Source: Candidatus Saccharimonadota bacterium
Lineage (GTDB): Bacteria; Patescibacteriota; Saccharimonadia; Saccharimonadales; Saccharimonadaceae
Assembly (NCBI GenBank): GCA_017514905.1
Contig: JAFWIK010000002.1
Span: 35,321 to 99,320 of the forward strand
Length of the DNA stretch: 64,000 bases
Direction of reading: 5' to 3'
Shown: one piece after another, positions 348 through 55,386 of the stretch
Layout of the letters: every line of letters begins with the position of its first letter
Numbering within the stretch: the stretch's first letter is position 1
Notes under the pieces: model-generated
Told to the model about the DNA's origin: nothing
What the model saw: the letters and a program-made list of their open reading frames with translations, nothing else
Databases searched by the model: none
Position numbers and translations under genes: made by a program

Positions 348-1104
348 GTTTTTAGCCGAACGCTTAGGAGTTTCGCGACGCGAGGCAGATGATTTGATTG
401 CCGCGGGTAAAGTCACGATTAATGATGACAAAGCGATTTTGGGCGCAAAAATTGACAAAAATGATAAAGTATGCTATAATAAAAAGATAGTTCCGTTTCA
501 AGCGGATTTTTCTTATCTTGCGTTTAATAAGCCCATCGGTTACGTCTGTTCACGTCGTGCTCAAGGGTCCACACCAACACTATATAATCTTTTGCCTATC
601 AAATACCAAAAGCTCAAAACTGTTGGTCGCCTAGACAAAGATACTTCCGGCCTGATTCTACTTACAAACGATGGTGATTTTGCTTTTCAAATGACGCACC
701 CAAAATTCCACAAAGAAAAGGTTTATGAGGTGGAGCTAAACAAGCCTCTAGAGCCCCTACACCAGCAAATGGTTTCCGATTACGGCGTCATGTTAGATGA
801 CGGACCAAGTAAATTTACCGTCATAAAAGACGATTCTATCCCCTCTAATCAAGGGGAGTTCCAGGATGTAACAACGCGAGAATTAACGCGCGAGTCTCGT
901 AGCGATGGATACGAAAGGTGCAACTCTGCAGACAAGATAACACAAAATCGTTACATTGTAACTTTATCCGAGGGTCGTAATCGCCAGATTAGACGAACGT
1001 TTGCTGCGCTTGGCTACCGAGTCATCAAGCTTCACCGCACACAATTTGGCAAATATCAACTTAATACTCTAGCTCCAGGCGAATTTACAGAATTCAAAAT
1101 TTAA
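319..1104 (+). CDS. rluB: 23S rRNA pseudouridine synthase, RluB/RsuA family
   Basis: 261 residues. An N-terminal S4 RNA-binding domain (residues about 5-50, RLNKFLAERLGVSRREAD) precedes the pseudouridine synthase core with the family motif VGRLDKDTSGLILLTNDGD, whose Asp106 is the expected catalytic residue, and the late motif EGRNRQIRRTFAALGY. The family isomerises a specific uridine in rRNA. Residues about 172-210 form an extra polar segment between the DDGPSK strand and RYIVTLSEGRNRQ that family members normally lack; its DNA resembles a decayed copy of the palindromic element described elsewhere in this window. The start overlaps the upstream gene by 29 nt, pointing to coupling. RluB versus RsuA/RluF cannot be decided from sequence alone. 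Confidence 0.85.
   Translation: MDNQKIRLNKFLAERLGVSRREADDLIAAGKVTINDDKAILGAKIDKNDKVCYNKKIVPFQADFSYLAFNKPIGYVCSRRAQGSTPTLYNLLPIKYQKLKTVGRLDKDTSGLILLTNDGDFAFQMTHPKFHKEKVYEVELNKPLEPLHQQMVSDYGVMLDDGPSKFTVIKDDSIPSNQGEFQDVTTRELTRESRSDGYERCNSADKITQNRYIVTLSEGRNRQIRRTFAALGYRVIKLHRTQFGKYQLNTLAPGEFTEFKI
834..950. repeat. decayed in-frame palindromic element inside rluB
   Basis: The arms are weak: ACGATT then 19-20 nt then GAGTT can be read inward from both ends. The centre holds CGCGAGAATTA, the same core as the element in alaS (CGCGAGAATTAGCGC). It encodes rluB residues about 172-210. I treat it as an eroded member of the alaS/iscS-type family. Confidence 0.4.
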
Positions 1105-2389: not shown

Positions 2390-4441
2390 TTATTCCAGCA
2401 CAGCTTTAATTCGGCGCACTCCAGCCGAGGAAGATTCTTCTTTTTTAATTCTGAAGTGACCAAGAACCCCAGTATGCTCCACGTGTGGCCCACCACAAAC
2501 TTCGCGTGAAATTGGTTTTTCAAAATCACCGATTGTATAGACTCTGAGTTTTTCGGGATATTTATCCCAGAACTGGCCATGCGCCTTCAGGGTATTTCGC
2601 GCATAAGCTTTGTCATATTCATCAAATACTACTGGAAGATCCGCTTTAATCCACTCATTCACTTGATCCTCGACAGCTTTTTTCTCTTCGTCAGTCATTT
2701 TGTGGTCCAAATTAAAGTCGAACCTTAATCTCTCTGCCGTAGTATTAGAACCGCGCTGCATTATGTCTGGCGAAACTAATTTCTGAAGCGCCGCAAGTAG
2801 TAGGTGTGTTGCTGTATGGTACTTCACGGTCTGTTCACCATGGTCCTCAAGCCCACCCTTAAACATGCCCTTCGACGCGGTTTGCGACCTTTCACGCTGT
2901 TCTTTTAAAGCTGTCTCAAATTCTTCACGGTAATTTTTTGTCAGTTTAATCCCTTCACGGTAGCATTCCTCCACCGAAAGTTCCATTGGAAAACCATAAG
3001 TATCCTGTAACTTAAATAAATCCCGGCCAGACAAGATGGCACTTTCGTCTCGACTCGGGGCATTTCGGAGCGCGGCAGCGCGAGAATTAGCGCCGGCCGC
3101 CCGTGGCGGACTGCCGGAGGAGTCGAGTGAAGAACGAGCTGGCTCGTTCTTCCGAGACGACGACGAGCAGACGACTTTAGTCGACGGGCCGGCCGGACGC
3201 GGCCCCGAGTGAGATGAAAGCGCCATCTTCTTTAACTCGCGTAATCCTTTATTTAAGGTTTGTCGAAAGGTCTTTTCCTCGTGAAGCATTATCTCGAGCG
3301 CTTTTTCGCGCTGGGTCAAGATTGAATCTGGTAAATCTGCATAAATGTCTGCTACTACTGGGACGATTTCTGCTAGGAAGTTTGTGGCAATCCCGAGGTC
3401 TAGCGCCCGTAAAATCGCTCTACGTAAGAGTCTGCGCATGGCATAACCCTGTGTTTTGTTTGATGGGACGAGCCCCTGAGCTGCTAGTAGGTATGCGCCA
3501 CGAATATGGTCAGCAATCACCCGCATTTCATCGGTGTTATTATCATAAGATTTGCCTGAAATTTTCCCAAGTTTATCAATAATAGGTTTCATTAATGAAA
3601 TCTTAAACACGTCAAACGAGCCAATCGCCGCTGCAGAAATCCGCTCCAAACCGCCACCAAAGTCCACATTTTTTTGCTCTAATTCGGCAAAAGTCCCATC
3701 CTCAAGTCGTCGATATTGCATAAACACCGAGTTGCCAATTTCCATAAATCTCGCTCCATCTGAAGCCGGATGTGCTTGGCCGAAGCGTGATACATCTTGT
3801 TTATCTTCGCCAAAATCATAAAATACTTCCGAATCCGGCCCACACGGGTCACCGATCGGAGTGTCTTCGAGCCCGCCACCCCGACTCCACCAGTTTTCGT
3901 GGTCATCATAAAAGAAAATACGCTCCCCTGGCTTAACACCGCGCTTATCGCCTTCGTCTGCCGAACCAATTTCAGCAATTTTAGCCTCAATTCCGGCGTT
4001 TTTGAATACTCTCTGCCAAATTTCTGCAGTATCGTTGTCTTTTGGAATGCCATATTTTTCGTTTCCGATAAAACAAGTCACATACAGCTTATTCGGATCT
4101 AGCCCTACAACTTTGGTCAAAAATTCAAAAAAGCTCTCAATCTGTTCTTCCTTAAAATAATCACCGAGCGACCAATTTCCTAGCATTTCAAACACAGTAG
4201 TATGCCTCGGATCGCCTACGTCGTCGATGTCTTGCATTCTAAGAGAAGGTTGCACGTCGGTCAATCTTTTGCCTTCCGGATGCTTTTTGCCTAAAAGATA
4301 CGGCAAAAGTGGCTGCATTCCTGAACTAGTAAAAAGCGTAGTCGGATCACCCTCTAGAACTAGTGGTGCCGGCTGGATTACTTTGTGCCCTCTTTTTTCT
4401 TGAAACTCTAAAAATTTTTTTCTAATTTCATTTGCATCCAT
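2390..4441 (-). CDS. alaS: alanyl-tRNA synthetase, compact form lacking C-Ala
   Basis: 683 residues from ATG 4441, chosen because the extended -10 box ends 7 nt upstream; the in-frame ATG at 4450 overlaps that box. It charges tRNA-Ala. The catalytic domain shows TSSGMQPLLPYLLG (motif 1 region), RHTTVFEMLGNWS (motif 2) and GGGLERI (motif 3). The editing domain keeps HTATH (542-546) and CGGPH (649-653). Usual bacterial AlaRS is about 875 residues: here the protein stops right after the editing domain, so the C-Ala domain is missing, and the segment between DTYGFP and HTATH is about 50 residues, much shorter than normal. Residues about 407-468 are a low-complexity insertion encoded by a palindromic element. 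Confidence 0.95.
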   Translation of the reverse strand: MDANEIRKKFLEFQEKRGHKVIQPAPLVLEGDPTTLFTSSGMQPLLPYLLGKKHPEGKRLTDVQPSLRMQDIDDVGDPRHTTVFEMLGNWSLGDYFKEEQIESFFEFLTKVVGLDPNKLYVTCFIGNEKYGIPKDNDTAEIWQRVFKNAGIEAKIAEIGSADEGDKRGVKPGERIFFYDDHENWWSRGGGLEDTPIGDPCGPDSEVFYDFGEDKQDVSRFGQAHPASDGARFMEIGNSVFMQYRRLEDGTFAELEQKNVDFGGGLERISAAAIGSFDVFKISLMKPIIDKLGKISGKSYDNNTDEMRVIADHIRGAYLLAAQGLVPSNKTQGYAMRRLLRRAILRALDLGIATNFLAEIVPVVADIYADLPDSILTQREKALEIMLHEEKTFRQTLNKGLRELKKMALSSHSGPRPAGPSTKVVCSSSSRKNEPARSSLDSSGSPPRAAGANSRAAALRNAPSRDESAILSGRDLFKLQDTYGFPMELSVEECYREGIKLTKNYREEFETALKEQRERSQTASKGMFKGGLEDHGEQTVKYHTATHLLLAALQKLVSPDIMQRGSNTTAERLRFDFNLDHKMTDEEKKAVEDQVNEWIKADLPVVFDEYDKAYARNTLKAHGQFWDKYPEKLRVYTIGDFEKPISREVCGGPHVEHTGVLGHFRIKKEESSSAGVRRIKAVLE
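3033..3229. repeat. in-frame palindromic element in alaS (core type B)
   Basis: About 197 bp. The outer arms AAGATGGCACTTTCGTCTC (3033 onward) and the complement of 3202-3229 match except at a few positions. A perfect 11-bp stem, GAAGAACGAGC, lies at 3129-3152. The core at 3066-3084 (CGGAGCGCGGCAGCGCGAG) is identical to the complement of 7012-7030 in iscS. It is read through in alaS without a stop, adding about 62 residues (SSHSGPRPAG to SRDESAIL). Confidence 0.85.
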
Positions 4442-4457
4442 ATCAAGCATTATATCA
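4442..4457 (-). promoter_or_regulatory. extended -10 promoter of alaS, leaderless
   Basis: On the minus strand TGATATAAT (TATAAT at 4454-4449) is followed by 7 nt and then ATG 4441. There is no room for a leader or ribosome binding site. Confidence 0.7.
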
Positions 4458-4489
4458 TATTTCCCAGTGGAAAAATAATTACCTACTAG

Positions 4490-4518
4490 TTGACAATAGT
4501 ATATTAGCGTGCTATTAT
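4490..4518 (+). promoter_or_regulatory. sigma70-type promoter of the small Cys/Lys protein
   Basis: TTGACA (4490-4495), a 17-nt spacer ending in TGC, then TATTAT (4513-4518). The gene has a leader of about 25 nt with an AAAGGAAA ribosome binding site, unlike the leaderless neighbours. Confidence 0.8.
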
Positions 4519-4547
4519 AAACATAAGTAAAATAAAAGGAAATATTT

Positions 4548-4748
4548 ATGGCACAAACAAAGAAAAAAACTGCAACTAAAACTGCGAAAAAAACAGCCTG
4601 CAACAAATGCCGCAAAAAGGCTTGCATGCGCACTAACAAAAGCAAAGGCATCAGCAGCGAAGAGCGTAAAGATGTTTATATTGTCACTGCTATGGGTATG
4701 ATCACTGGCCTTCTGCTTTGCGCGAATGCTGTAATGTTAATGGCCTAA
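4548..4748 (+). CDS. small Lys/Cys-rich single-pass membrane protein
   Basis: 66 residues. The first half is extremely basic (KKKTATKTAKKTACNKCRKKACMRTNKSK) with three cysteines as CNKC and KAC; the second half is one hydrophobic segment (VTAMGMITGLLLCANAVMLM). The start is set by the AAAGGAAA site and a consensus promoter with 17-nt spacing. It stands alone between divergent alaS and a strong terminator shared with mnmA. I do not recognise the family. The basic, cysteine-containing N-terminus could bind nucleic acid or metal close to the membrane, but this is not shown. Confidence 0.7.
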   Translation: MAQTKKKTATKTAKKTACNKCRKKACMRTNKSKGISSEERKDVYIVTAMGMITGLLLCANAVMLMA

Positions 4749-4760
4749 TTTATAGTTCAA

Positions 4761-4790
4761 AAAATAACCCCCTCCGGGGTTATTTTTTTA
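4761..4790. terminator. bidirectional intrinsic terminator
   Basis: The hairpin AAATAACCCC / GGGGTTATTT with a 4-nt loop is followed by a T run on the + strand and preceded by an A run, so it can end both the small protein gene and convergent mnmA. Confidence 0.9.
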
Positions 4791-6068
4791 TTCTGCAATT
4801 ATTCCACCGCCTAGACAAATTTCGCCATCATATAGTACGGCAGACTGCCCCGCCGCCGGACGCTTGACTTCACTTTCAAAATGTAAGGTTTTTCCATCAA
4901 AAGTCGCTGGAACTAGTGGTGCCCGGTGCCTCAGGCGAACAGAAACCTGTTTTTTCTGAAGCGTAAAATGATTTGAAAAATCTGAAACGTATATTCCAGA
5001 CGACGCCGAGAGGTTCGTCTGCGTAGCAGACGGTTCTCCCGGCCGTCCTGTGTATGACGTTTCTGATTTTTTAAGTCCAGCTTCAGAAAAAACAGGTTCT
5101 GTTCGCATGATGACATTCTTCAAGATTAGTTCCTTGGTCCAGATCGCCTCATGATTCAGATTCCTTGACACGTAAATAATGTTCTTTTTAATGTCTTTTT
5201 TGACGACATAATATGGCAAACCTTCATTCACTACACCTTTTTCGCCTTCGAGATATAACCCATGTCGCTGTCCGATTGTATAAAACACTGCTCCTTCGTG
5301 ATAACCTAGTACTTTGTCAGTTTCAATTTCGCGAATTTCGCCCGGTTCAATTTCAATATACTCCTTAAGAAAATCTTTCATTCCCACTTCGCCCACAAAA
5401 CAAACTCCCATCGATTCCTTTTTGTACGCGTTGTGTAGGCCCTTTTCCTTGGCTAATTTCTTAACATCAGGCTTTAGCATCTCGCCGATCGGAAAGATTG
5501 TATGCGCCAAAGCCTCGTCCGAAATCCGATACAAAAAATATGTCTGGTCTTTATTCTCATCTACGGCTCTTGCAAGAGCTATAGCCGTTTCGAGTCCGTT
5601 CGCGACAACGGGAGCGATCGACGAAGCGAGCCCTGTAACGACAGGAGCGAGCGAGGAGGGACGAGAAATGGCCATAGCTCTTGCATAATGCCCTGTGGCG
5701 ATAAAGTCAGCTCCAGTCGCCATGGCTTTTTCGTAAAACAATTTGAACTTAATCTCTTGGTTGCACATGATGTCGGGGTTCGGCGTATTGCCTTTTTTGA
5801 ATTCTTCCAGCATATAATCCACCACTTTTTGCCGATATTCTTCTTCAAAATCCCAGACTTCAAACGGAATTCCAAGCTTTACTGCCACGCGCTTAGCATC
5901 TGCTAAGTCCTCCGCCCAAGGGCATTTCATACCGGGCAGATCTCTTGACCAGTTTTTCATGTAAATACCGACCACGTCATAACCTTGTTCCTTCAAAAGT
6001 AAGGCCGACACGCTTGAATCTACTCCGCCGCTCATTCCAACATAAACTTTTTTTCTTTGAGTTTTCAT
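4788..6068 (-). CDS. mnmA: tRNA-specific 2-thiouridylase MnmA with two inserted segments
   Basis: 426 residues; typical MnmA is about 360. It thiolates U34 of tRNA-Lys, -Glu and -Gln using sulfur passed from a cysteine desulfurase. The PP-loop GMSGGVDSSV is at 11-20, the nucleophile Cys102 is in DIMCNQEIKF and the partner Cys223 in MGVCFVGE. The end QSAVLYDGEICLGGGII is canonical. Two segments have no counterpart in the family: residues about 131-167 (SRPSSLAPVVTGLASSIAPVV) and 328-372 (SEAGLKKSETSYTGRPGEPS to FTLQKK), each encoded by a palindrome. The ATG overlaps the stop of iscS in an ATGA, so the sulfur donor and user are translationally coupled. Confidence 0.95.
   Translation of the reverse strand: MKTQRKKVYVGMSGGVDSSVSALLLKEQGYDVVGIYMKNWSRDLPGMKCPWAEDLADAKRVAVKLGIPFEVWDFEEEYRQKVVDYMLEEFKKGNTPNPDIMCNQEIKFKLFYEKAMATGADFIATGHYARAMAISRPSSLAPVVTGLASSIAPVVANGLETAIALARAVDENKDQTYFLYRISDEALAHTIFPIGEMLKPDVKKLAKEKGLHNAYKKESMGVCFVGEVGMKDFLKEYIEIEPGEIREIETDKVLGYHEGAVFYTIGQRHGLYLEGEKGVVNEGLPYYVVKKDIKKNIIYVSRNLNHEAIWTKELILKNVIMRTEPVFSEAGLKKSETSYTGRPGEPSATQTNLSASSGIYVSDFSNHFTLQKKQVSVRLRHRAPLVPATFDGKTLHFESEVKRPAAGQSAVLYDGEICLGGGIIAE
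4935..5106. repeat. in-frame palindromic element in mnmA (core type C)
   Basis: About 172 bp. The arms GCGAACAGAAACCTG and TTTTTTCTGAAGC pair with the complement of 5080-5106, and ATCTGAAACGT with ACGTTTCTGAT. The centre GAGAGGTTCGTC...GACGGTTCTCCCGG is shared with the tatD element. The outer arms code for T-E-P-V on one side and Q-V-S-V-R on the other, that is, flanking MnmA residues. Confidence 0.9.
5571..5685. repeat. in-frame palindromic element in mnmA (second copy)
   Basis: About 115 bp. The arms TGCAAGAGCTATAGCC and the complement of 5671-5685 differ at one base in the first 16. The centre holds a duplicated unit (CGACAACGGGAGCGA and ACGACAGGAGCGA) resembling type B cores. It encodes MnmA residues about 131-167, including the repeated peptide S-[LI]-A-P-V-V. 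Confidence 0.8.
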
Positions 6069-7303
6069 GATTTTTTGACTCTCTTATATTCAGACGAAAC
6101 GGCATTATTAATGATCTTCGCTGCGTCACGCATTTGTTCTTCAGTGTTTGTTTCTCCCAAACTGAGTCTCAAAGATCCAGCAATTTGGGAGTCATCTAGT
6201 CCTAGAGCTTTTAAAACGTGTGATTTTCGACCTTTTGAAGCCGCACAGGCCGCTCCAGTTGCTACATACACCCCTTTTTCCTCTAAGAGATATATTAACC
6301 TCTCTGCATCAATACCATTATAGCATAAAACTATAAAATTGTCAAGAGCATGTTTTTTATTAATCAACTCATAATTCTCTAATTTGTTTAGTAATATTTT
6401 GCGCCAGGCAGCGTATTTTTTACGGTTTCCATTTAAATGCTCGCTTGCAATTTCTACGGCTTTCGCAAAGCCAATCACTCCAGGCACATTTTCCGTGCCA
6501 GAGCGCAAACCATTTTCCTGTCCGCCGCCAACCGTCATGGGTTGTAATTTTGCCTCGTGTGAAACATATAAAGCTCCCACACCCTTTGGCCCGTAGATCT
6601 TTGCGGCATTTAGTGTCAAAAGATCTATACCTAGTCTGGCCACTTTGATATCTAAAAGATTTAAAGCTTGCGATGCGTCAGAATGGAGTAGTAGTTCCCT
6701 TTTGACTCCTCGTTTGAAACGATCTAACTTGATATTGCGAATCAGGCTAGCAATTTCAGCCAAAGGTTGCACTACGCCGATCTCATTATTAACTAGACTG
6801 ACAGAAATTAATTCCGTTTCATCGGTAATTTTATTCTTCAAATCTGCCAGGTCAATTAGCCCATTTTTTAACACTTTAATAGTTTGTCCACCGTAGCGTT
6901 GGGCGACCGACCGCACCGAATCATGCTCCGTTTCTAGATATAGTACAGAATTTACACTTGATTCGGGGTCGCGTCGCTCGCGCCCGTCGCCACGGGGCGA
7001 GCGCGCTAATCCTCGCGCTGCCGCGCTCCGGAATCCCCCGAATTCAAGTGTAAAATCTGTACTAATAGCTGTAAACGCCAGATTATTTGCTTCAGTCGCG
7101 CCAGCGGTAATGACGAGGTCCGACGCCTTGGCGCCGATCGCATGCGCAATCGTTGCTTTGGCCGCTTCATAATCTGCCGCAACTTTTTTCGCTGGTAAAT
7201 ATGCGGCTGAAGGGTTAAAAAAATCATCCAAAAAGTACGGCTCCATTGTCGTGAGCACCCGTTTATCAACTGGCGTTGCCGCCGCATGATCCAGATAAAT
7301 CAT
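6065..7303 (-). CDS. iscS: cysteine desulfurase IscS/NifS family with insertion
   Basis: 412 residues, PLP-dependent class V aminotransferase fold. It takes sulfur from cysteine and, next to mnmA, most likely feeds tRNA thiolation. Features include YLDHAAATPVD at the N-terminus, TAGATEANNLA (61-75), the TEH motif near 125-127, the Schiff-base Lys235 in NAAKIYGPKG (the usual His before Lys is Ala here) and active Cys353 in TGAACAASKGRK. Residues about 81-121 (TLEFGGFRSAAARGLARSPR and on) are an extra Arg-rich loop encoded by a palindrome. The ATG at 7303 lies 6 nt after a TATAAT. A second class V enzyme (sufS-like) is at 44.6 kb. Confidence 0.9.
   Translation of the reverse strand: MIYLDHAAATPVDKRVLTTMEPYFLDDFFNPSAAYLPAKKVAADYEAAKATIAHAIGAKASDLVITAGATEANNLAFTAISTDFTLEFGGFRSAAARGLARSPRGDGRERRDPESSVNSVLYLETEHDSVRSVAQRYGGQTIKVLKNGLIDLADLKNKITDETELISVSLVNNEIGVVQPLAEIASLIRNIKLDRFKRGVKRELLLHSDASQALNLLDIKVARLGIDLLTLNAAKIYGPKGVGALYVSHEAKLQPMTVGGGQENGLRSGTENVPGVIGFAKAVEIASEHLNGNRKKYAAWRKILLNKLENYELINKKHALDNFIVLCYNGIDAERLIYLLEEKGVYVATGAACAASKGRKSHVLKALGLDDSQIAGSLRLSLGETNTEEQMRDAAKIINNAVSSEYKRVKKS
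6942..7063. repeat. in-frame palindromic element in iscS (core type B)
   Basis: About 122 bp. The arms AGTACAGAATTTACACTTGA and the complement of 7042-7063 differ at one position. The core 7012-7030 is the exact complement of alaS 3066-3084, so this copy has the opposite orientation to its gene from the alaS copy, yet both are read through without stops. Confidence 0.9.
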
Positions 7304-7318
7304 AAAAATATTATAACA
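7304..7318 (-). promoter_or_regulatory. extended -10 promoter of iscS-mnmA, leaderless
   Basis: TGTTATAAT on the minus strand, 6 nt (ATTTTT) before ATG 7303. Confidence 0.75.
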
Positions 7319-7321
7319 TAT

Positions 7322-7711
7322 TTAGCTGTTTGCTACAAATTCATACTCTTTGCCGTCAGCCGAAAGAGTCAACTTACCGTTTGACTGGTCCAAAGTGTAA
7401 TCATACTCATTCTCTAGTTCGTACAACCAATCCGTTTCGATTTTCAGTTTACCGTCTTCGAGTGCCCATTTGAATTCATAGTCATTTTCGTGACCATTAG
7501 TAGTCAAAGTGCCCTTTCCAATTTCAGTGAAGTCCCACACGACTTTATCCGAATCGCTCAGGGTCCAATTTTCCTGTGCTACCAAATAATCTCCATCTTG
7601 TGCCGCCGCGCCCTTGTTTAAATTCATTACCAAAAAAACAATGCCAGTAACGAGCGTTGCTAGCCCCACTATTAAAGTTGTAATAGCCCAAACTAATTTC
7701 TTTTTTCTCAT
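7322..7711 (-). CDS. small membrane-anchored beta-rich protein, unknown function
   Basis: 129 residues. A basic start (MRKKK) and one transmembrane helix (about residues 8-31) are followed by an acidic extracellular part rich in alternating polar and aromatic residues (WTLSDSDKVVWDFTEIGKGT, EYDYTLDQSNGKLTLSADGK), which reads like a small antiparallel beta domain. No catalytic motif is visible and I do not recognise the family. It has its own leaderless promoter 6 nt upstream and lies between iscS and tatD on the same strand without overlap, so it is probably a separate unit. Confidence 0.7.
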   Translation of the reverse strand: MRKKKLVWAITTLIVGLATLVTGIVFLVMNLNKGAAAQDGDYLVAQENWTLSDSDKVVWDFTEIGKGTLTTNGHENDYEFKWALEDGKLKIETDWLYELENEYDYTLDQSNGKLTLSADGKEYEFVANS

Positions 7712-7726
7712 AGCTTCATTTTATCA
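7712..7726 (-). promoter_or_regulatory. extended -10 promoter, leaderless
   Basis: TGATAAAAT on the minus strand, 6 nt (GAAGCT) before ATG 7711. Confidence 0.65.
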
Positions 7727-7748
7727 TAAGAACAAAAAAATGCCAAAA

Positions 7749-8636
7749 TTAAAGCTTAAATAGCGCTTCAGTGTTTGCCGTGGTAACTTTTTCGACGGTA
7801 GAAAAGTCAGAGTCAAGCGTCTCAGCCAGCCAGTTCGCGATATCTAGGATATGACTAGGTTCGTTCGTTTGGTTACGGAATCCTTTCGGCGCTAGAAATG
7901 GCGCATCAGTCTCTAGCATGATTCTCTCAAGTGGTGGCATCGGCAAAGTCGAATAGGTCGCTAAGCCGTTTACGCCAATATAAAAATCAGTTTCATTTAG
8001 AATCCGCTTTAATACTTTTTTACTACCAGTAAAAGAATGTACCACACCGCGAGCTTTAGGAAAATTTGCCACCACAGCAAAGAAGTCCGGAAAAGCTCCG
8101 CGTACGTGAAATGACAGTGGCAGATCATTGTCTTTCGCGAGCTGCAACATCTGCTCGAACAGCCTAATCTGCGCCGCCCGATCGTATCCTTCATCATGGT
8201 AATCCAGCCCGACTTCACCAATCGCGACGGGCAAGATTGGTTTTTGCCCTTTCTGAAGCGTAAAGATTTGATTTGAATTTTTAACACGTCTATTCCTGCA
8301 CCGAAGGTCCGACCTCTGGTCGACGCACCCGAGAGGTTCGTCCCGTAGGGACGGTTCTCCCGGCGTGCCAGCGTATGACGTGCTTAAAAATTCAAGTCCA
8401 GCTGAAGAAAAGGCAAAACCAGTCTTGCCCGTCTCGGATGGATGTATGCCATAGGTCCAGTACACATAATCATGCTTCGACGCAAATTCTGCTGCCGCCA
8501 GAGAATCCTCGTGCGACGTGCCAATACAGACGATTTTTTTTACGCCGAACTTTTCTGCGCGTTTCAGACAGTCTTCCGCTTGTTTTGCAGTATAAAACTC
8601 CTTATCGTGTAGATGGCAGTGCGAATCAATTAACAC
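7749..8636 (-). CDS. tatD: TatD-family metal-dependent hydrolase/DNase with insertion
   Basis: 295 residues, TIM-barrel amidohydrolase fold. The metal ligands appear as DSHCHLH (residues 4-10), VAIGEVGLDYH with Glu141, SFHVRGA, VVHSFTGS and ETDAPFLAP. TatD proteins act as 3'-5' exonucleases or DNases. Family members are about 260 residues; the excess is residues about 70-133, between GIHPSETGKTG and KPILPVAIGE, encoded by a palindromic element and containing TSYAGTPGEPS and FTLQK, motifs also found in the MnmA insertion. Translation starts at GTG, overlapping the end of typA by 11 nt, so it is the second gene of a typA-tatD operon. Confidence 0.9.
   Translation of the reverse strand: MLIDSHCHLHDKEFYTAKQAEDCLKRAEKFGVKKIVCIGTSHEDSLAAAEFASKHDYVYWTYGIHPSETGKTGFAFSSAGLEFLSTSYAGTPGEPSLRDEPLGCVDQRSDLRCRNRRVKNSNQIFTLQKGQKPILPVAIGEVGLDYHDEGYDRAAQIRLFEQMLQLAKDNDLPLSFHVRGAFPDFFAVVANFPKARGVVHSFTGSKKVLKRILNETDFYIGVNGLATYSTLPMPPLERIMLETDAPFLAPKGFRNQTNEPSHILDIANWLAETLDSDFSTVEKVTTANTEALFKL
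8226..8433. repeat. in-frame palindromic element in tatD (core type C)
   Basis: About 208 bp, the longest seen. The arm GACGGGCAAGATTGGTTTT at 8226 pairs with the complement of 8415-8433; TTGAATTTTTAA and CACGTC also pair with the other side. The centre GAGAGGTTCGTCCCGTAGG matches the mnmA copy. The outer arms are TatD-specific (ILPV / TGKTG codons), so only the inside is shared between loci. Confidence 0.9.
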
Positions 8637-22893: not shown

Positions 22894-23028
22894 TGTTGCA
22901 TAATTCATCAATATCGAAGGACATAAAGAAAAAATCTTTGATTTTTTCGCCGAAAGGGCGGAGTGACGTGATAAAATCTTTAAATTATCACGTCACGGAG
23001 CTCCTGAGATATGATGAATTATGCAACA
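22894..23028. repeat. intergenic palindromic element between queH and queA
   Basis: About 135 bp. The arms TGTTGCATAATTCATC pair exactly with GATGAATTATGCAACA at the far end, and an inner stem GTGACGTGAT/ATCACGTCAC (22962-22996) is nested within. It lies between the queH stop and the queA promoter and may also act as a terminator or processing site. Confidence 0.85.
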
Positions 23029-23063: not shown

Positions 23064-24113
23064 ATGTTAGTATCAGACTATAATTATGATTTGCCAGAGG
23101 AAAGGATTGTAAAATTCCCTCCCAAAGAACGTGGCACGACTAGACTTTTAGTTTTAAATCGTAAAACTGGTGAGATGAAAGACTCATATTACAAAGATTT
23201 TGTTGATTATTTAAATCCAGGAGATGTCTTGATCCTAAACGATACCCGCGTGATGCAATCGCGTTTGTTTTGTGAACTGCCCGACGGCCGCAAGCGCGAA
23301 ATCGTTGTGCTTGAAAAGCACGGCGACGAACCTCAGCGCGTGATGTATCGCGGCAAACTTCACGACGGTGACGTCTTAAAGATCATGCCGACGAAACTTG
23401 GAGATGTTGCTTTCGAGGGGGCGTTCCGAGAAAGCAATACTCCAAGTTTTGTCATCTCTCACATTTTAGGCGACGGTATTGCAGAAGTTGAGTCCGATAC
23501 ACCACTTTCTGAACTCGCTGAGAAATACGGCACCGTTCCCTTGCCGCCCTACCTTCACCGCGACGCCACCGATTCTGATAAGAAACGTTACCAAACCGTT
23601 TGGGCCAAGAATATGGGTTCTGCAGCAGCTCCTACCGCCAGTCTGAATATGACGGATGAGCTTCTAGAAAAAATCCTTAAAAAAGGAGTCACGATTAAAT
23701 ATCTAACTTTGCACGTCGGCCTCGGCACTTTCTTGCCGATTCGTTCTGATAATGTCGAAGACCACAAAATGCATTCCGAATGGTTCCGCATTCCAGAAGA
23801 TACGATTGAGGAAATTAAAACTGCCAAAGCTTCTGGTCACCGTGTGGTCGCACTAGGCACTACGGTTACTCGTACGTTAGAGTATTATGGCAAAACCGGT
23901 AAAACCGAAGGTGAAGACGATATTTTTATTTATCCTGGTTTCGAATTTACCACCGTCGATGCAATTTTGACGAATTTCCACGCTCCCAAATCTACCGTTC
24001 TCATGCTCGCCGCCGCTTTCGCCGGCTGGGATCATCTCCATGCCGCCTATGACCACGCCGTGAAGGAAAAATACAACTTCCTGAGCTATGGAGATTCAAT
24101 GTTTATATGTTAA
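23064..24113 (+). CDS. queA: S-adenosylmethionine:tRNA ribosyltransferase-isomerase QueA
   Basis: 349 residues. QueA transfers and isomerises the ribosyl group of SAM onto preQ1-tRNA to give epoxyqueuosine. Family motifs: DYNYDLPEERIVKFPP at the start, RGTTRLLVLNR, GDVLILNDTRVM, YGTVPLPPYLHR, TVWAKNMGSAAAPTASLN, HVGLGTFLPIR, EWFRIPE and TNFHAPKSTVLMLAAAFAG. Residues about 110-131 (TKLGDVAFEGAFRESNTPSF) replace the usual loop and are encoded by a small palindrome. The order queH-queA-tgt runs the pathway in reverse. The start is defined by the leaderless promoter. Confidence 0.95.
   Translation: MLVSDYNYDLPEERIVKFPPKERGTTRLLVLNRKTGEMKDSYYKDFVDYLNPGDVLILNDTRVMQSRLFCELPDGRKREIVVLEKHGDEPQRVMYRGKLHDGDVLKIMPTKLGDVAFEGAFRESNTPSFVISHILGDGIAEVESDTPLSELAEKYGTVPLPPYLHRDATDSDKKRYQTVWAKNMGSAAAPTASLNMTDELLEKILKKGVTIKYLTLHVGLGTFLPIRSDNVEDHKMHSEWFRIPEDTIEEIKTAKASGHRVVALGTTVTRTLEYYGKTGKTEGEDDIFIYPGFEFTTVDAILTNFHAPKSTVLMLAAAFAGWDHLHAAYDHAVKEKYNFLSYGDSMFIC
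23390..23453. repeat. short in-frame palindrome in queA
   Basis: 64 bp. GACGAAACTTGGAG pairs with CTCCAAGTTTTGTC with one mismatch, and TTGCTTTC with GAGAAAGCAA inside. It is read through in frame, encoding about 21 residues. Confidence 0.75.
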
Positions 24114-24126
24114 ATAAGAAATTACA

Positions 24127-25403
<1,277 letters not shown>

Positions 25404-25408
25404 TCTAT

Positions 25409-25442
25409 TTGCAAAAATATTCCGCTCGTGTATAATAAAAGC
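25409..25442 (+). promoter_or_regulatory. promoter of FISUMP surface protein gene, leaderless
   Basis: TTGCAA (25409), 16-nt spacer, TATAAT (25431-25436), then 6 nt (AAAAGC) to ATG 25443. Confidence 0.7.
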
Positions 25443-26804
25443 ATGAGAAGTCATATATGTACTGAAAAGATGGCGCTAAGCACCTTTTTGTTAGGCTTAA
25501 CTATAATTAGCTCTGCACTTCTAGTAGAAGGCGCCTCCGCCGTTACTTACCAAGATAGTGTCGATGTTTCTTTCACTTTTAATCCCACTATTTCTATTAA
25601 TCTTTCTTCCGATACGGCTAGTACCGATTTAATCATTGATAACCTTGCCCCTGGTTCTGTCGCAGATAGTAATACTCTCACTGTGAGTGTTATAACAAAC
25701 GCTGCCTACGGTTATTATCTCACCGCTACAGCTGGCACCTCTTCTACTAATACGGATTTAGTAAATACTAGCAACAGTAATTATAAATTTACTAGCTTAG
25801 CTCCAAATGCAGACTTATCTACTCTCACTACCGACAATACTTGGGGCTATCGTACTTCAGACGATAATGGTTCTACTTGGTCTAATTATTCAGGTCTTCC
25901 AAAAGATAATAACGACGAAGGTGCTACTGGAAAGTCCCTTATTGAAACCACCAGCCCGGCAGATAATAGGTCCATCAAATTCAAAATCGGCGCAAAGGCT
26001 TCAACCGACCAAGCCTCAGGCACCTATACCAATATCATTACTTTCTACGCTGTGACTAGCCCAGAGCCAGAACCACCAGTCGGCCCAGATCCTCCAGTTA
26101 CTTGCAATACTCCAGTACCAAACATCACCTATATGCAAGAAATCAATTCATCTAATGCCGCTACTGTCATGAGTAATATGACTGATAATGCACAGTACTA
26201 TCTACGCGACTCTCGTGACGAAGAACCTTACTGTGTATCCAAAATTAAAACTAAAAACGCTAGTGAAGAAGATCAGTACGCTATCTGGATGACTCAGAAC
26301 TTAAGAATCACCGGCATAGTTAACTCCACTAACTCTAACTTTAGTACCCACGAAAACGTCAATGTCTGTGAAGGAGATCTCACCGGCGGTGATAGCTACG
26401 ACGAGGCTAGATGCCACGATTCAGGAAACACAGAAAACGGCGTCTGGTACAATTACGCCGCAGCCAGCGCTAAGACTATTCTTACAAGTAATAACTCCAC
26501 CCTGGATACTGAAAACATTTGCCCAGCCAACTGGACTTTACCTAGTTACGATACTAGTAAACCAGCGGGCTCCATAAATAGTTTAGTCGGTTCGGATTCG
26601 GTTTATGCCTTCTCCCCAGTTACCGGTGGCTACTACCGCGGAGGCTCCGTTTACGTTCCTGGCAACGGCTACTGGTGGTCTACGACGGCTAGCAGTAGCA
26701 ACTATCGTTACTACCTCTACTACAATGGTAGTAGCCTGGGTACCAGCAGCGGCAGCTCTCGCAACTTCGGGAACTATATTCGCTGCGTGAGAGCATCGTT
26801 ATAG
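25443..26804 (+). CDS. secreted FISUMP-domain surface protein
   Basis: 453 residues. A signal peptide (LSTFLLGLTIISSALLVEGASA) is followed by a beta-rich N-terminal domain (about 35-205) related to those of the other surface proteins here, a proline linker (SPEPEPPVGPDPP) and one FISUMP domain (about 225-453) with YYLRDSRDEEPYCVSKIK, IWMTQNLRI, VWYNYAAASA and NICPANWTLPSYD. The last 55 residues are Tyr/Ser/Gly-rich and encoded by GC-rich DNA dense in NNC codons, unlike the T-ending codons before it. No sortase motif or C-terminal membrane helix is present. It is probably an adhesin-like protein; its ligand is unknown. Confidence 0.8.
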   Translation: MRSHICTEKMALSTFLLGLTIISSALLVEGASAVTYQDSVDVSFTFNPTISINLSSDTASTDLIIDNLAPGSVADSNTLTVSVITNAAYGYYLTATAGTSSTNTDLVNTSNSNYKFTSLAPNADLSTLTTDNTWGYRTSDDNGSTWSNYSGLPKDNNDEGATGKSLIETTSPADNRSIKFKIGAKASTDQASGTYTNIITFYAVTSPEPEPPVGPDPPVTCNTPVPNITYMQEINSSNAATVMSNMTDNAQYYLRDSRDEEPYCVSKIKTKNASEEDQYAIWMTQNLRITGIVNSTNSNFSTHENVNVCEGDLTGGDSYDEARCHDSGNTENGVWYNYAAASAKTILTSNNSTLDTENICPANWTLPSYDTSKPAGSINSLVGSDSVYAFSPVTGGYYRGGSVYVPGNGYWWSTTASSSNYRYYLYYNGSSLGTSSGSSRNFGNYIRCVRASL

Positions 26805-27272: not shown

Positions 27273-27559
27273 TGGTTTAGTTTTCAGGGGTTTCGTTTCT
27301 TCCCGCCTTTCCGAAACTTCCGATAAGTACGATAGCACAATTTTGATAACATCAGAGATTACAAGTGATAAGTCAGGATGGCTCTGCTTCTAAACTCTGG
27401 TGACAGAAATCTAGATATATGACAACGTAAAATAATGATTTAGAAATCACTGCACCAAGAAATCTGGTAACATTGGAGAATCGTGACAATGAACAATTGA
27501 GGCTGAATAGAGAACCTAGTTCCTTGTTAGTTCCTTGCTTGCCACAGGTTTAATCTAGT

Positions 27560-27676
27560 TTTTTTGAAAGGCCTTTTTCATTCTGAAGCAATAAAAAATG
27601 ATTTGTTACGTTGGGATTTTGTGAAAATCACTAACGTAACAAGCCCTGCTTTAGAATGAAGGAGGCTTGGCAAAAC
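27560..27676. repeat. intergenic palindromic element upstream of the KilA-N gene
   Basis: Outer arms TTCATTCTGAAGCA versus the complement of TGCTTTAGAATGAA (one mismatch); inner stem TTGTTACGTT/AACGTAACAA around GATTTT/AAAATC. The inner GTTACGT resembles the GTGACGT stem in the queH-queA spacer. Confidence 0.75.
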
Positions 27677-27702
27677 AATATATAATATATAGTGACTATC
27701 AA

Positions 27703-35875: not shown

Positions 35876-37609
35876 ATGCCTTTAGAATATTTGTACAAAA
35901 AAATCAAAAACACTTTGCGCAAAATCGACATGAAGATCGAGCGCGCTAAATATGGTTACATCGATAAATTACCTCGCGACATCGAATATTTCGACGGTGG
36001 TCTCTACGACGCCATTTATGAATCATCTTGTAAATGGCCGCACAATACTGCCCTCGAATATTTTAACACACAGGTGACTTACAAAGAACTCATCAAAAAA
36101 ATCAACAAAGTTGCCGCTGCCCTCAAGGTTATGGGTGCCGAAAAAGGAGAGCGTATCACCGTCTGTATGCCTAATACCCCAGAGGCGATTTACATGTTTT
36201 ATGCCATCAACGAAATCGGCGCCGTGGCCAATATGATCCATCCGCTTTCTTCTGAAAAAGAGATTGAGGACTATTTGAACCAGGCGCATTCTAAAATCAT
36301 GCTTTGTATCGACGTGAGCTACCCGCGAGTCGAAAACATTGTCAAAAACACTGATGTGGAGCAGCTAGTGGTAGTTTCGCCTACCCGCTCGATGGACATG
36401 CTAGTGCGCCTAATCTACAAACTTACCAAAGGTCGTAAAAACCACATTAAAAAATCTCAGCGTGTAATTACCTGGGATCAATTCATGATGAAAGCTAATA
36501 AATTCGTCGGTAATCCGCACGCAAGGGTGAACTCAAAGGACGATGCTGTGATTCTCTACTCTGGTGGTACCACTGGCAAGCCCAAAGGCATCATTCTCTC
36601 AAACCTAAACTTTAACGCTCAAGCTCTTGGCGCCAAATACTTAGTCCCAGAGCTCTTTAAGACCGAATATTCCTTCATGGCCTTCTTACCGAATTTTCAC
36701 GCCTTTGGCCTCGGCTGCTGTATCCATATGCCGCTTTACTTTGGTGCGACCACCTTTCTCATCCCGCAGTTTAATCCTAAAAAATTCAAAAGCTATATCA
36801 CGAAATATAAAGTTAATATCTTGGTCGGTGTGCCATCGGTTTTTGAATATCTCACTAAGATCAAATTCAAAAAAGACCAACTAAAAACCGTGAAATTCGT
36901 AGTCTCGGGTGGCGATATGATCAGCATGTCAAGCAAAGAGACTGTCAATGATTTTCTGCATGAGCACGGTTCTAAGGCTGTAATCGAAAACGGCTATGGT
37001 CTGACCGAAGCTTCGGGTGGCTTTATTTTCTCGACCCCAAATGTCGCGGAAGACCCAGACGCTATCGGCTATCCATTGCCCGACAATGAAGTAATTATCC
37101 TAGGATTAAAGTCTAATAAGCCCGTTAAGAATGGTGAAGATGGCGAAATTTTGGTGCGCGGCTTGGCCGTGATGAAGGGTTATCTTGACAATCCGAAAGA
37201 AAATGAAGCTGCCTTTGTCACGGTTAACGGAAAAAAATATTTGCGAACAGGTGATATCGGCTACATGGATGATCGCGGCGTGGTGCATTTCCGCTCGCGG
37301 CTAAAACGCATGATTATTAGCAACGGCTATAATATTTATCCATCTACCATCGAAGATGCTACTTTGAAATGCAATAAAATCGCAAGCTGCGCCGCCGTTG
37401 GTAAACCCGATAAACTGCGCGGTGAAAAGATTGTCGTCTTTGCGGTTCTCGCTAAGGATGCTTCTGAGCACGCCGCCAAGAAGGAACTAGCAAGCATTTA
37501 TAAGAAATATCTTGCTAAGTACGAAATTCCACGCGAAATACGCTTCATTGACGAAATGCCGAAGACCAAGCTTGCCAAGGTTGACTTTAAAGCTCTGGAG
37601 CAATTGTAG
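35876..37609 (+). CDS. AMP-dependent acyl-CoA synthetase/ligase
   Basis: 577 residues, ANL superfamily. The adenylate motif is VILYSGGTTGKPKGIILSN, then GYGLTEASGG and RTGDIGYMDDRGVVHFRSRLKRMI, and the C-terminal lysine motif MPKTKLAKVDFK. These are the marks of enzymes that activate a carboxylic acid to acyl-AMP and then a thioester. The fatty acid is a plausible substrate, given the acyltransferase and cdsA nearby, and would suit an organism that scavenges host lipids (inference). No membrane segment. The last codons (CAATTGTAG) lie inside the arm of a large palindrome. Confidence 0.88.
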   Translation: MPLEYLYKKIKNTLRKIDMKIERAKYGYIDKLPRDIEYFDGGLYDAIYESSCKWPHNTALEYFNTQVTYKELIKKINKVAAALKVMGAEKGERITVCMPNTPEAIYMFYAINEIGAVANMIHPLSSEKEIEDYLNQAHSKIMLCIDVSYPRVENIVKNTDVEQLVVVSPTRSMDMLVRLIYKLTKGRKNHIKKSQRVITWDQFMMKANKFVGNPHARVNSKDDAVILYSGGTTGKPKGIILSNLNFNAQALGAKYLVPELFKTEYSFMAFLPNFHAFGLGCCIHMPLYFGATTFLIPQFNPKKFKSYITKYKVNILVGVPSVFEYLTKIKFKKDQLKTVKFVVSGGDMISMSSKETVNDFLHEHGSKAVIENGYGLTEASGGFIFSTPNVAEDPDAIGYPLPDNEVIILGLKSNKPVKNGEDGEILVRGLAVMKGYLDNPKENEAAFVTVNGKKYLRTGDIGYMDDRGVVHFRSRLKRMIISNGYNIYPSTIEDATLKCNKIASCAAVGKPDKLRGEKIVVFAVLAKDASEHAAKKELASIYKKYLAKYEIPREIRFIDEMPKTKLAKVDFKALEQL

Positions 37610-37795
37610 AGATTTAAAATAAGAGTTTTGCGAGCATTTTTGTGAGCCCACGAAGTTTTTTGGAATTTTAGGAAATTTTTGCAGCGAGACCCCCATCCGG
37701 CGTGAGACGCAAAAATTTCCGTAAAGAAATTCCAAAAAACTTCCTGGCGCGAATCAAACCGCGAACAAAACCTTATTTTAAATTTCTATAAATTG
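37601..37795. repeat. palindromic element spanning the convergent acyl-CoA synthetase and recR ends
   Basis: About 195 bp. Outer arms CAATTGTAGAGATTTAAAATA and the complement of the right end match with few differences, and the inner arms GAAGTTTTTTGGAATTT and AAATTTTTGC pair exactly. Both flanking stop codons (TAG of each gene) are inside the arms. Confidence 0.9.
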
Positions 37796-45780: not shown

Positions 45781-45915
45781 TGATATAATAGATACAGTTA
45801 CCAAAGACAGTGGCGGCTTTCAGGCTTAATCATGCCACCGAGGAATTTCTTAAATTAGTTTTGGTGACGCTATTTAACAATTAGCTAGCTAAATCAAACT
45901 AAAAAAAGGATTAAT
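45781..45915 (+). ncRNA. promoter and L10-type ribosomal protein leader of rplJ-rplL
   Basis: TGATATAAT (TATAAT 45784-45789) should start a leader of about 120 nt. It folds as an outer stem ACCAAA/TTTGGT and an inner stem GTGGC/GCCAC (45810-45838) with flanking AGACAG and CCGAGG, a layout resembling the L10(L12)4 binding site that autoregulates this operon in other bacteria. A ribosome binding site AAAAGGA precedes ATG 45916. Confidence 0.7.
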
Positions 45916-47574: not shown

Positions 47575-47583
47575 TGAAAAGAC

Positions 47584-47685
47584 AAAAAATACTTTTGGGA
47601 CACAGGTCGTTCACTCCCGTCGTCACGGAGACTAAGCCATAATTCTTAGTTGTAACCCCAGAATTGTCCCAAAAGTACTATTTTA
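47584..47685. repeat. intergenic palindromic element after rplA (core type B)
   Basis: About 102 bp with perfect 13-bp arms TACTTTTGGGACA/TGTCCCAAAAGTA. The inside aligns along its length with the element at 49896: GGACAC, GGTCG, CCGTCGTCACGG, TAATTCT, GTAACC and TGTCC in the same order. Confidence 0.85.
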
Positions 47686-49840: not shown

Positions 49841-49870
49841 AAAAATCCCTTTCTAGTGCGTAACTTAGCC

Positions 49871-49879
49871 ATTATAACA
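49871..49879 (-). promoter_or_regulatory. extended -10 promoter of rplK
   Basis: TGTTATAAT on the minus strand (TATAAT 49876-49871), followed by a leader of about 25 nt with AAAGGGA. Confidence 0.7.
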
Positions 49880-49895
49880 AATCTACACTAAAAAA

Positions 49896-50010
49896 GCAAC
49901 TAAAAAGGTACTTTCAGGACACGGGTCGCTCCGGCCCGTCGTCACGGGCGGAGCGCCCTAATTCTCGGTCGTAACCTCCGAAATGTCCTGAAAGCACCCT
50001 TTTTAGTTGC
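49896..50010. repeat. intergenic palindromic element between nusG and rplK (core type B)
   Basis: 115 bp. GCAACTAAAAAGG and CTTTCAGGACA pair with TGTCCTGAAAG and CCTTTTTAGTTGC. The interior CCCGTCGTCACGGGCGGAGCG followed by CTAATTCTCG aligns with the iscS and alaS elements and with the copy at 47.6 kb. Confidence 0.9.
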
Positions 50011-50016
50011 TAGTTA

Positions 50017-50565
50017 TTAGTTTAATTGTTTTACTTGTAAAGCATCAAGTTCAACTGGGGTCTCGCGCCCAAACATCGAAACCATAACCTTGAGCTTGCC
50101 TTTAGCGGCGTCAATTTCAGAAATCGAACCGTCAAAGCCTTTAAATGGACCGTCAGTAATCGACACCACTTCACCAACTTCATATTTGACTGAGAACTTC
50201 GGATCTTCTACACCCATCCGTTTCTTGATCTTAGTGATTTCCTTCTCAGAAACTGGTGTAGGTTGTGTGCCAGTACCGATAAAGCCAGTGACGCCTGGGG
50301 TATTACGAATAATATACCAAGTTTCATCGGATAGCTTCATATCTACTAAAACGTAACCCTGTAAAATCTTTCGGTCCACGATTTTGCGTTTACCATTTTT
50401 AATCTCAATTTGCTTTTCTTTTGGTACAATGGCTTCAAAAATCTTGTCGGCCATCTCGACCGTGTTTACACGCTGGTTAATGGAATCAGCTACCTTGTCC
50501 TCGTAGCCAGAATACGTCGAAATCGCGTACCAAGCTCTTGTATCATCATATCTATTTACTGCCAT
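50017..50565 (-). CDS. nusG: transcription termination/antitermination factor NusG
   Basis: 182 residues. NGN domain with WYAISTYSGYEDKVADSINQR and GYVLVDMKLSDETWYIIRNTPGVTGFIG, then a KOW domain with VVSITDGPFKGFDGSISEID. It couples RNA polymerase to ribosomes or Rho. It follows secE by 21 nt, the standard arrangement. Confidence 0.96.
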   Translation of the reverse strand: MAVNRYDDTRAWYAISTYSGYEDKVADSINQRVNTVEMADKIFEAIVPKEKQIEIKNGKRKIVDRKILQGYVLVDMKLSDETWYIIRNTPGVTGFIGTGTQPTPVSEKEITKIKKRMGVEDPKFSVKYEVGEVVSITDGPFKGFDGSISEIDAAKGKLKVMVSMFGRETPVELDALQVKQLN

Positions 50566-55356: not shown

Positions 55357-55386
55357 ATGCGAGAGTGTCGGAGGTGGTCCCAGTGA
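55357..55386 (+). CDS. leaderless nine-codon leader peptide
   Basis: ATG to TGA encodes MRECRRWSQ. Its ATG is exactly 6 nt after TATAAT, the spacing of the leaderless genes here. Within it lies GGAGGTGG (55370-55377), a ribosome binding site for the GTG at 55383, and its stop overlaps that GTG as GTGA. This layout predicts coupled translation of the giant surface protein. Confidence 0.55.
   Translation: MRECRRWSQ

Follow-up and report, generated by a model that had tools for sequence, protein, structure and literature searches.

How do long palindromes come to lie in frame inside core genes of a very small genome? Reduced genomes are expected to shed selfish DNA, yet core genes in one genus of Saccharibacteria carry foreign hairpins in frame. 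The window considered here, 64,000 nt of one such genome (G000), comes from this genus, whose housekeeping genes contain many short fold-back pieces where relatives have none or a different one. They are likely to be mobile DNA that repeatedly rewrites the loops of essential proteins, and they amount to a large set of natural experiments on protein tolerance of new sequence.

Palindromes in the window

Comparison of the window with itself on opposite strands, a family model and orthologues together recover the seven long imperfect inverted repeats that a first-pass annotation had placed inside alaS, iscS, mnmA (twice), tatD, queA and tgt. Outside gene interiors, where it had counted at least five more, six palindromes are located, some of them at gene edges, in addition to an eroded one in rluB (Table 1). 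Open reading frames are uninterrupted in all seven insert-bearing genes, as annotated. The gene that we take to be iscS, following the annotation's name, encodes a class-V aminotransferase according to Pfam.

Table 1 Palindromes and inserted elements of the window, with scores from the opposite-strand self-comparison and matches to the family-A model R1.
Feature	Position	Strand	Score	Evidence and remarks
rluB, eroded remnant	847..948	+		L164 and L166 carry an element at the same spot
alaS insert, family A, holds nested element	3011..3257	-	30	Palindrome; R1 match 3041-3222 +, 97.7 bits; family-A peptide RAAALRN
Nested element N, 75 nt, in loop of alaS family-A hairpin	3109..3183	+		Copies without interruption read CCCGTGGCGACGGG
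mnmA insert 2, family B, between MR and VRLRH strands	4909..5133	-	77	Core common to tatD and other genomes
mnmA insert 1, diverged family A, antisense, after GHYAR	palindrome 5571-5685; element 5577..5680	+	20	R1 25.7 bits, E ~0.0004 (rough, as all R1 E-values); hot spot in relatives
iscS insert, family A, sense	palindrome 6908-7098; element 6949..7055	-	48	R1 120.5 bits (training sequence of R1); 77-nt core identical to second copy in genome
tatD insert, family B, outer arms of its own	8218..8441	-	53	Palindrome; core comparison
Palindrome between queH and queA; longer queA frame passes through	22894..23028	.	26	Palindrome
queA palindrome, unclassified, around extra residues (~23388-23453)	23333..23512	+	33	Palindrome; orthologues
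Family C palindrome, queA/tgt junction, overlaps ends of both genes	24095..24239	.	30	Palindrome; clustering
tgt palindrome around extra residues (~24747-24833), family-C-like by eye	24719..24855	+	23	Palindrome; orthologues
Intergenic palindrome, outer blocks family-B-like by eye	27535..27702	.	37	Palindrome
Intergenic palindrome, no cluster partner in sample	37604..37791	.	70	Palindrome; clustering
Eroded family A copy, intergenic	47582..47684	-		R1 41.8 bits
Family A element, 3' end of 50017-50565 CDS	49864..50042	-	41	Palindrome; R1 match 49901-50003, 89.5 bits (training sequence of R1)

Three shuffles of two-base units give best scores of 24, 33 and 26. By this measure the mnmA-2, tatD and iscS palindromes are far above chance, and those of alaS, queA, tgt and mnmA-1 are not above shuffled sequence by palindrome score alone. 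The alaS and mnmA-1 elements are both recovered by R1, which was trained without either. The queA and tgt inserts are supported by their orthologues rather than by score. The queA spot is shorter by 17 residues in 13 of 28 orthologues, intermediate in 5 and longer in 10, with family-A-like peptides in at least three of the longer ones (L333, L347, L355); the tgt spot is shorter by 17-29 residues in 18 of 21, and the other three (L360-L362) hold other inserts. The annotation's eroded eighth palindrome, in rluB, is a fair description, its spot being occupied by a family-A element in the relatives L164 and L166.

The alaS family-A element has its own plus strand on the plus strand of the window and is therefore antisense to alaS. 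Elements also nest: a composite like that of alaS and N occurs in mnmA of genome G036 (L164:10060-10284). No Rfam RNA family scores over its cut-off at the elements, and a sub-threshold match of RF02180 (E = 2.8) overlapping mnmA-2 is taken as chance.

A dispersed core with a covarying fold

Clustering of 82 long palindromes, spanning 90-354 nt with 90 nt as the floor, yields clusters of 45, 8, 4 and 3 and leaves 22 single. The core of family A is GC-rich, about 79 nt long, and folds as a three-way junction in which both sides have changed in 31 of 40 pairs. In the alignment 84.3% of cells are paired, against 67.4% when shuffled and 36-46% when slid, the structure having been taken from folding the iscS copy in the window, a choice that favours real over slid versions. 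The families are dispersed and share a core with covarying stems. The first-pass claim of shared cores stands in this form, with one correction: only the core is common, and the outer arms are particular to each copy.

Similar palindromes do occur elsewhere in the genome, G000 holding at least 26 family-A copies. The core is matched in 123 of the 174 genomes of the genus and rarely elsewhere; an element search in a 47-genome sample matched the own genome and 10 of the 47. Among 77 copies (79 of 110 R1 hits, with weaker, nested and short ones left out, minus duplicates), 65 are in-frame insertions within open reading frames, and these occur in both orientations. Their hosts include aminoacyl-tRNA synthetases, DNA ligase, UvrB, UvrC, PriA, TruB, MnmA and Der, among others. 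With the aligned core as an approximate reference, five reading frames are used by 6-14 copies each and the sixth once. A 77-nt core is identical in two G000 copies and one copy of G006, a genome whose MnmA is 72% identical to that of the window.

Arms particular to each copy

Outside the core, the arms of each copy pair with each other and are unrelated to the arms of other copies. Counts that start from palindromes, and the R1-based set, whose model stem includes part of the arm, favour paired arms; copies picked by core sequence alone are a fairer sample. In 42 such copies, arm complementarity is at least 8 in 40 and at least 10 in 34, compared with cross-copy scores that have a median of 1.5, a 95th percentile of 6, a 99th of 10 and a maximum of 17.5. 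In the own genome, where the best 14 of 21 core matches were used, 12 of the 14 have mutually complementary arms, and the two failures (L202, L211) hold a nested piece. The G000 pair with the identical 77-nt core has arms unrelated beyond a few bases. MITEs have terminal inverted repeats common to their copies, with a target duplication; the arms here are inverted repeats too, but they differ from copy to copy. Capture of arms from elsewhere is rejected: within 37% of the own genome, the longest match per arm (mean 12.3) is close to what random pieces give (11.8), apart from one nested case of 24.

Mismatches in the arms, read on the element's own strand, are more often G.T than A.C: 88 vs 47 in the R1-based set (p = 5e-4), 39 vs 21 in the 42 core-picked copies (p = 0.03) and 43:12 in an additional arms-restricted count. 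The excess is present whether copies are sense (32:19) or antisense (44:25). A whole-palindrome count, which mixed in badly paired stretches, lacks it (159 vs 178 on the element strand, 211 vs 214 on the host sense strand). Plain symmetric repair does not predict such an excess, which is a hint that a folded single strand (RNA or DNA) has a function in its own right. The host sense strand shows no wobble excess (22 G.T vs 26 A.C), and selection on host mRNA pairing is not supported.

Turnover among relatives

Across relatives, the inserts of mnmA, iscS, tatD, queA, tgt and rluB differ between species, and at the same spots presence, family and orientation vary. The segments that the first-pass annotation had described as extra to their protein families are indeed absent, different or inverted in orthologues. 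MnmA was compared in 117 of the best 120 proteins out of 7772, two sites agreeing when both are empty or their inserts are at least 50% alike. At a backbone identity of at least 99%, 35 of 36 site-pairs agree; agreement falls to 14 of 28 at 97-99% and 19 of 56 at 95-97% (33/84 over 95-99%). Proteins P0011 and P0030, with backbones 91% alike, have 95% of an insert in common, including its arms, at a site that is empty or different in P0015 and P0017, which are about 96% like P0011. Such sequences suggest that entire inserts pass from one species to another.

At mnmA-2, the arms of L166 and L167 match and the core lies in opposite orientation, a single case of inversion. Some short sites retain, by eye, remnants of arms or cores (L179, L285, L293). 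The genomes compared are drafts, and among them there is no true pair of strains that differ by a fresh insertion. The mobility of the elements is well supported, as the first-pass annotation had proposed for an element class new to the phylum; in the samples searched, however, the elements are nearly confined to one genus. No earlier report of them in Saccharibacteria or Patescibacteria was found in the open-access literature searched.

Both mnmA sites lie within a single open frame at 96 of 101 loci examined, and one of about 150 mnmA matches listed has a stop (G099). In the AlphaFold model of MnmA, whose predicted fold matches solved MnmA and TrmU, pLDDT is 25-56 in insert 2 and 45-63 in the middle of insert 1; other blocks are mostly at 74-98, except 210-230 (51-59) and 271-280 (61). 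The inserts are predicted to be translated as disordered loops.

Possible routes of spread

Identical cores within unrelated but complementary arms pose a testable question: how does the hairpin move and gain a new stem? The best guess is a switch of template during replication, by which the conserved hairpin core would be copied into a new place. The core would need no enzyme of its own, being carried by a polymerase that slips between hairpins, and the same switching may make the arms complementary or keep them so. Homologous recombination of the host gene would then carry whole inserts from one species to another, and survivors would be those insertions that lack stops and sit in tolerant loops. 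For these dispersed in-frame elements, spread of the core by this route is about an even call. Template switching is a known means of homogenising the arms of an inverted repeat and inverting the piece between them, according to the available text of PMC8604942 and PMC8794818. The hairpins described there share with the present elements complementary arms, compensating changes that span several bases and inversion of the piece in between, but the text presents a local mutation process, whereas the core found here is dispersed and turns up at many places.

A direct test, in which an arm would equal the inverted native linker, does not support template switching. Likeness to the nearest versus a random short allele is 0.34/0.29/0.37 vs 0.26/0.28/0.32 on the left side and 0.47/0.37/0.25 vs 0.43/0.37/0.22 on the right (mnmA-1/mnmA-2/iscS, n = 27/39/21), at sites whose frequencies are not a random sample, the 60 loci being the highest-ranked by likeness to the window's MnmA. 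Fold-back copying of the native linker finds no general support as a source of arms, the nearest short alleles hardly resembling the inserts more than random ones do; L294 and L269 are single suggestive alleles in which one arm may be inverted native flank. The added length is consistent with a core and a single arm at iscS and in most mnmA-2 copies, and not clearly so at mnmA-1 and tatD. The strand bias of the arm mismatches also counts against this route. Pre-existing hairpins are rejected as targets, short (empty) sites being no more palindromic than elsewhere (p = 0.55, 0.08 and 0.23 at mnmA-1, mnmA-2 and iscS).

More tentatively, the element may be a folded core of about 79 nt without fixed ends or a transposase of its own, which acquires a fresh complementary stem at each site, nests within itself and rewrites the loops of essential proteins by gain, inversion and interspecies exchange. 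If true, such a core would be a genus-wide engine of protein change.

Movement of the hairpins as non-autonomous elements by an IS200/IS605- or RAYT-type single-strand transposase is unlikely. Hairpin form and the strand bias in wobble pairs would suit single-stranded transposition, but Y1_Tnp, one of the two profiles searched, is without a match in G000 and finds one in just 2 of 47 genus mates, against 11 of 32 genomes from other families. The ends of the element, moreover, are not fixed, the shared inner arm being about 9 nt in L200/L205 and about 5 nt in L199/L200. Movement through a folded RNA and reverse transcription is somewhat harder to sustain. The G.T excess in both sense and antisense copies fits it, as does the frequency of RVT_1, the other profile, in the genus (29 of 47 mates vs 2 of 32 others); against it, RVT_1 is missing from G000 and from carriers such as G036, G046, G026 and G018 (99-100% complete), and G027 and G032 have it yet show no A-core match. 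Neither enzyme is therefore supported as a necessary partner.

Equally improbable is a set of old, static inserts whose cores are kept alike by recombination between copies while the arms drift with compensating changes. The orthologous rluB inserts of L164 and L166, with a closely kept core and more changed arms, agree with this, but half of the MnmA site-pairs at 97-99% backbone identity differ in presence, family or orientation. Excision of the hairpin from the messenger, or its skipping by the ribosome to leave a normal protein, is very improbable: a long closing stem would bring both edges together, but frames stay open through the inserts, both orientations occur and the host sense strand shows no wobble enrichment. 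Ordinary fast-evolving loops that are palindromic by chance can practically be dismissed, and are already contradicted for families A and B, for although the spots are tolerant loops and 4 of the 7 genic palindromes score within the shuffled range, the same DNA recurs in numerous unrelated genes as well as in intergenic positions, in either orientation and with covarying stems.

Relation to known palindromic elements

Mitochondrial mobile hairpins (byps and double-hairpin elements) also invade coding sequence, but the ribosome is said to skip byps, whereas the present inserts are open in frame. REP sequences are extragenic and associated with RAYT transposases, whereas most copies examined here are intragenic, and Y1 (RAYT) transposase is found in none of G000 and 2 of 47 genus mates. 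In the available text of PMC3733652, REP sequences are likewise many short palindromes per bacterial genome, but of 20-40 bp, against a core of about 79 nt plus arms.

A close parallel is with Rickettsia palindromic elements, described in the available text of PMC10969869 as short palindromes (~150 bp) that form several families and insert, with the frame kept, into unrelated metabolic genes of reduced genomes. The likeness noted on first pass holds in concept: the Saccharibacteria elements, too, fall into several families and sit in frame within metabolic genes that are unrelated to each other, again in a reduced genome. They differ in phylum, in a three-way-junction core read in several frames instead of one conserved peptide, and in copy-particular arms, nesting, rapid turnover and apparent transfer from species to species.

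Palindrome families and their common core

The draft genome that contains the window comprises 700,269 bases in 26 contigs, and its nearest named relatives among the matches listed are uncultured Candidatus Saccharibacteria, several of them from goat, sheep and yak gut. The first-pass annotation claimed long palindromes lying in frame inside housekeeping genes, and opposite-strand self-comparison of the window recovers them: seven are genic (alaS, iscS, tatD, queA, tgt and two sites in mnmA) and five are intergenic or at gene edges, with a sixth of this kind added by the family A model. Palindromicity far exceeds that of shuffled sequence in mnmA site 2, tatD, iscS and one further palindrome (table), and for alaS, queA, tgt and mnmA site 1 the support is family membership or orthologues.

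Features of the window located by coordinates
Position	Feature	Remark
25428-26804 and 55365-62930	Large secreted-looking proteins	W.STT...YYLY...RCV type domain, terminal or repeated
37604-37791	Palindrome	Palindromicity far above shuffled sequence
45783-45887	Ribosomal protein L10 leader	RF00557, 51.4 bits, above cut-off; 5' of an L10-like gene at 45916
47582-47684	Intergenic or gene-edge palindrome	Family A, by extension with the model
49864-50042	Palindrome	Family A

A survey of 972,137 bases (the window, 14 other stretches of the own genome and 40 of genus mates) contains 82 palindromes of at least 90 bases, which are grouped by their cores into family A (45 copies), family B (8), another family of 4, family C (3) and 22 single elements. 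The alaS and iscS palindromes belong to family A, to which a model trained on 27 copies adds mnmA site 1, and those of tatD and mnmA site 2 belong to family B. A smaller element, N, is nested in the family A copies of alaS and of mnmA in another genome (G036). Viewed by eye, a PriA-type gene of the own genome (L201, contig C26) carries a family A core within family C-like outer blocks, so that families are nested here too. The family A core folds as a three-way junction with changes on both sides in 31 of 40 pairs, above all shuffles and all slid controls, a count to be taken with caution because the structure was derived from one of the sequences tested.

Arms and candidate mechanism

Beyond the core, most family A copies are little alike, and the two arms of each copy pair together. 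Among 42 copies picked by core alone, the pairing score is at least 8 in 40 and at least 10 in 34, against a median of 1.5 (95th percentile 6, 99th 10) for arms combined across copies. The iscS copy and another from the same genome (L060:6981-7087) have cores identical over 77 nt and about 5 further bases in common, after which their arms are unrelated. Some pairs have a longer common inner arm, about 9 nt in loci L200 and L205, and orthologous copies have arms in common, as in rluB of L164 and L166. Empty sites, when examined, are not palindromic, and a search of 37% of the own genome gave no second occurrence of the arm sequences. Our reading is that the core moves, and that the stem around it would be newly made at each place. 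On the strand of the element itself, though not on the host sense strand, G.T mismatches outnumber A.C ones, which hints at a role for a folded single strand; a coarser mismatch count lacks this excess.

Template switching is the mechanism we prefer. The growing strand would copy a hairpin core encountered elsewhere or on an imported molecule and go back to its original place, where the hairpin would allow the polymerase to copy one arm onto the other. Template switching is reported both to create and repair the arms of hairpins and to invert the spacer between them (PMC8794818, PMC8604942). Two alleles, compared by eye, are suggestive of it: in L294 the left arm is similar to native linkers, for example the one in L175; in L269 an older right arm has apparently been retained outside a new one. 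A general comparison with the nearest short alleles gave no support to such an origin of the arms. Y1 transposases were not found in the own genome and most of the genus, with matches in 2 of 47 genus mates versus 11 of 32 other-family genomes. The occurrence of reverse transcriptase does not follow that of the elements, RVT_1 matching 29 of 47 genus mates and nothing in the own genome.

The likeness to Rickettsia palindromic elements proposed at first pass holds in concept, as those elements are described in PMC10969869. A single conserved peptide like theirs was not found here, and on this descriptive comparison the present elements are not classed among them. No earlier report of such elements in the phylum of Saccharibacteria was found in the open-access listings searched.

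Distribution and host genes

Counting the own genome, matches to the 77-nt family A core occur in 123 of the genus's 174 genomes. Of 148 genomes sampled across the order, the family A model matches 9. This genus supplies six of them (the own genome among these), and the other three belong to a second genus in the same family, in which matches are few and some form inverted pairs. By eye, two loci of the second genus (L255 in G308, L256 in G302) have inverted pairs of family-A-like elements within a spacer that adjoins a primase-like gene; between the two genomes, one copy including its arms shows a single-base difference over 98. A 136-base piece of the family B element at mnmA site 2 finds matches in the own genome and in 10 of 47 genus mates, and in none of 32 other-family genomes.

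The own genome holds at least 26 family A copies, and 20 of 25 among those listed lie in open reading frames. The hosts are AlaS, MnmA and IscS and, by Pfam, UvrC-, TrmD-, UvrD-, PriA-, TruB-, Der-, UvrB-, RecX- and Wzy-like proteins, NAD-dependent DNA ligase, an M1 peptidase, a methylase and class I synthetases, among them a leucyl type.

Host proteins and insert turnover

In 96 of 101 loci, one uninterrupted reading frame spans both mnmA sites. In the predicted structure of the window's MnmA, whose fold matches solved MnmA, the second insert and the central part of the first fall in low-confidence loops between strands; two further stretches are of low confidence too. The inserts are expected to be translated as disordered, mostly harmless loops. 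IscS and MnmA form one frame in 2 of 100 loci (L188, 803 aa; L182, 756 aa), and in L188, from genome G034, the linker is an A-like palindromic element.

In a non-random sample of parsed loci, inserts of at least 90 bases occupy mnmA site 1 in 30 of 99, mnmA site 2 in 42 of 96 and iscS in 23 of 85; tatD, queA, tgt and rluB show a similar turnover pattern. Among 117 public MnmA proteins parsed from the best 120, the inserts of 35 of 36 site-pairs agree in content at backbone identity of at least 99%, those of 14 of 28 at 97-99% and those of 19 of 56 at 95-97%. Two of these proteins (P0011, P0030) have a common insert, arms included, although their backbones are further apart than those of relatives that lack it, suggesting that inserts are exchanged between species. 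Loci L288 and L298 have mnmA DNA 92% alike and unrelated site 2 inserts, and L166 and L167 have matching arms around a core in reversed orientation. Apart from the palindromes, the W.STT...YYLY...RCV type domain of the window's secreted-looking proteins resembles targets of diversity-generating retroelements.
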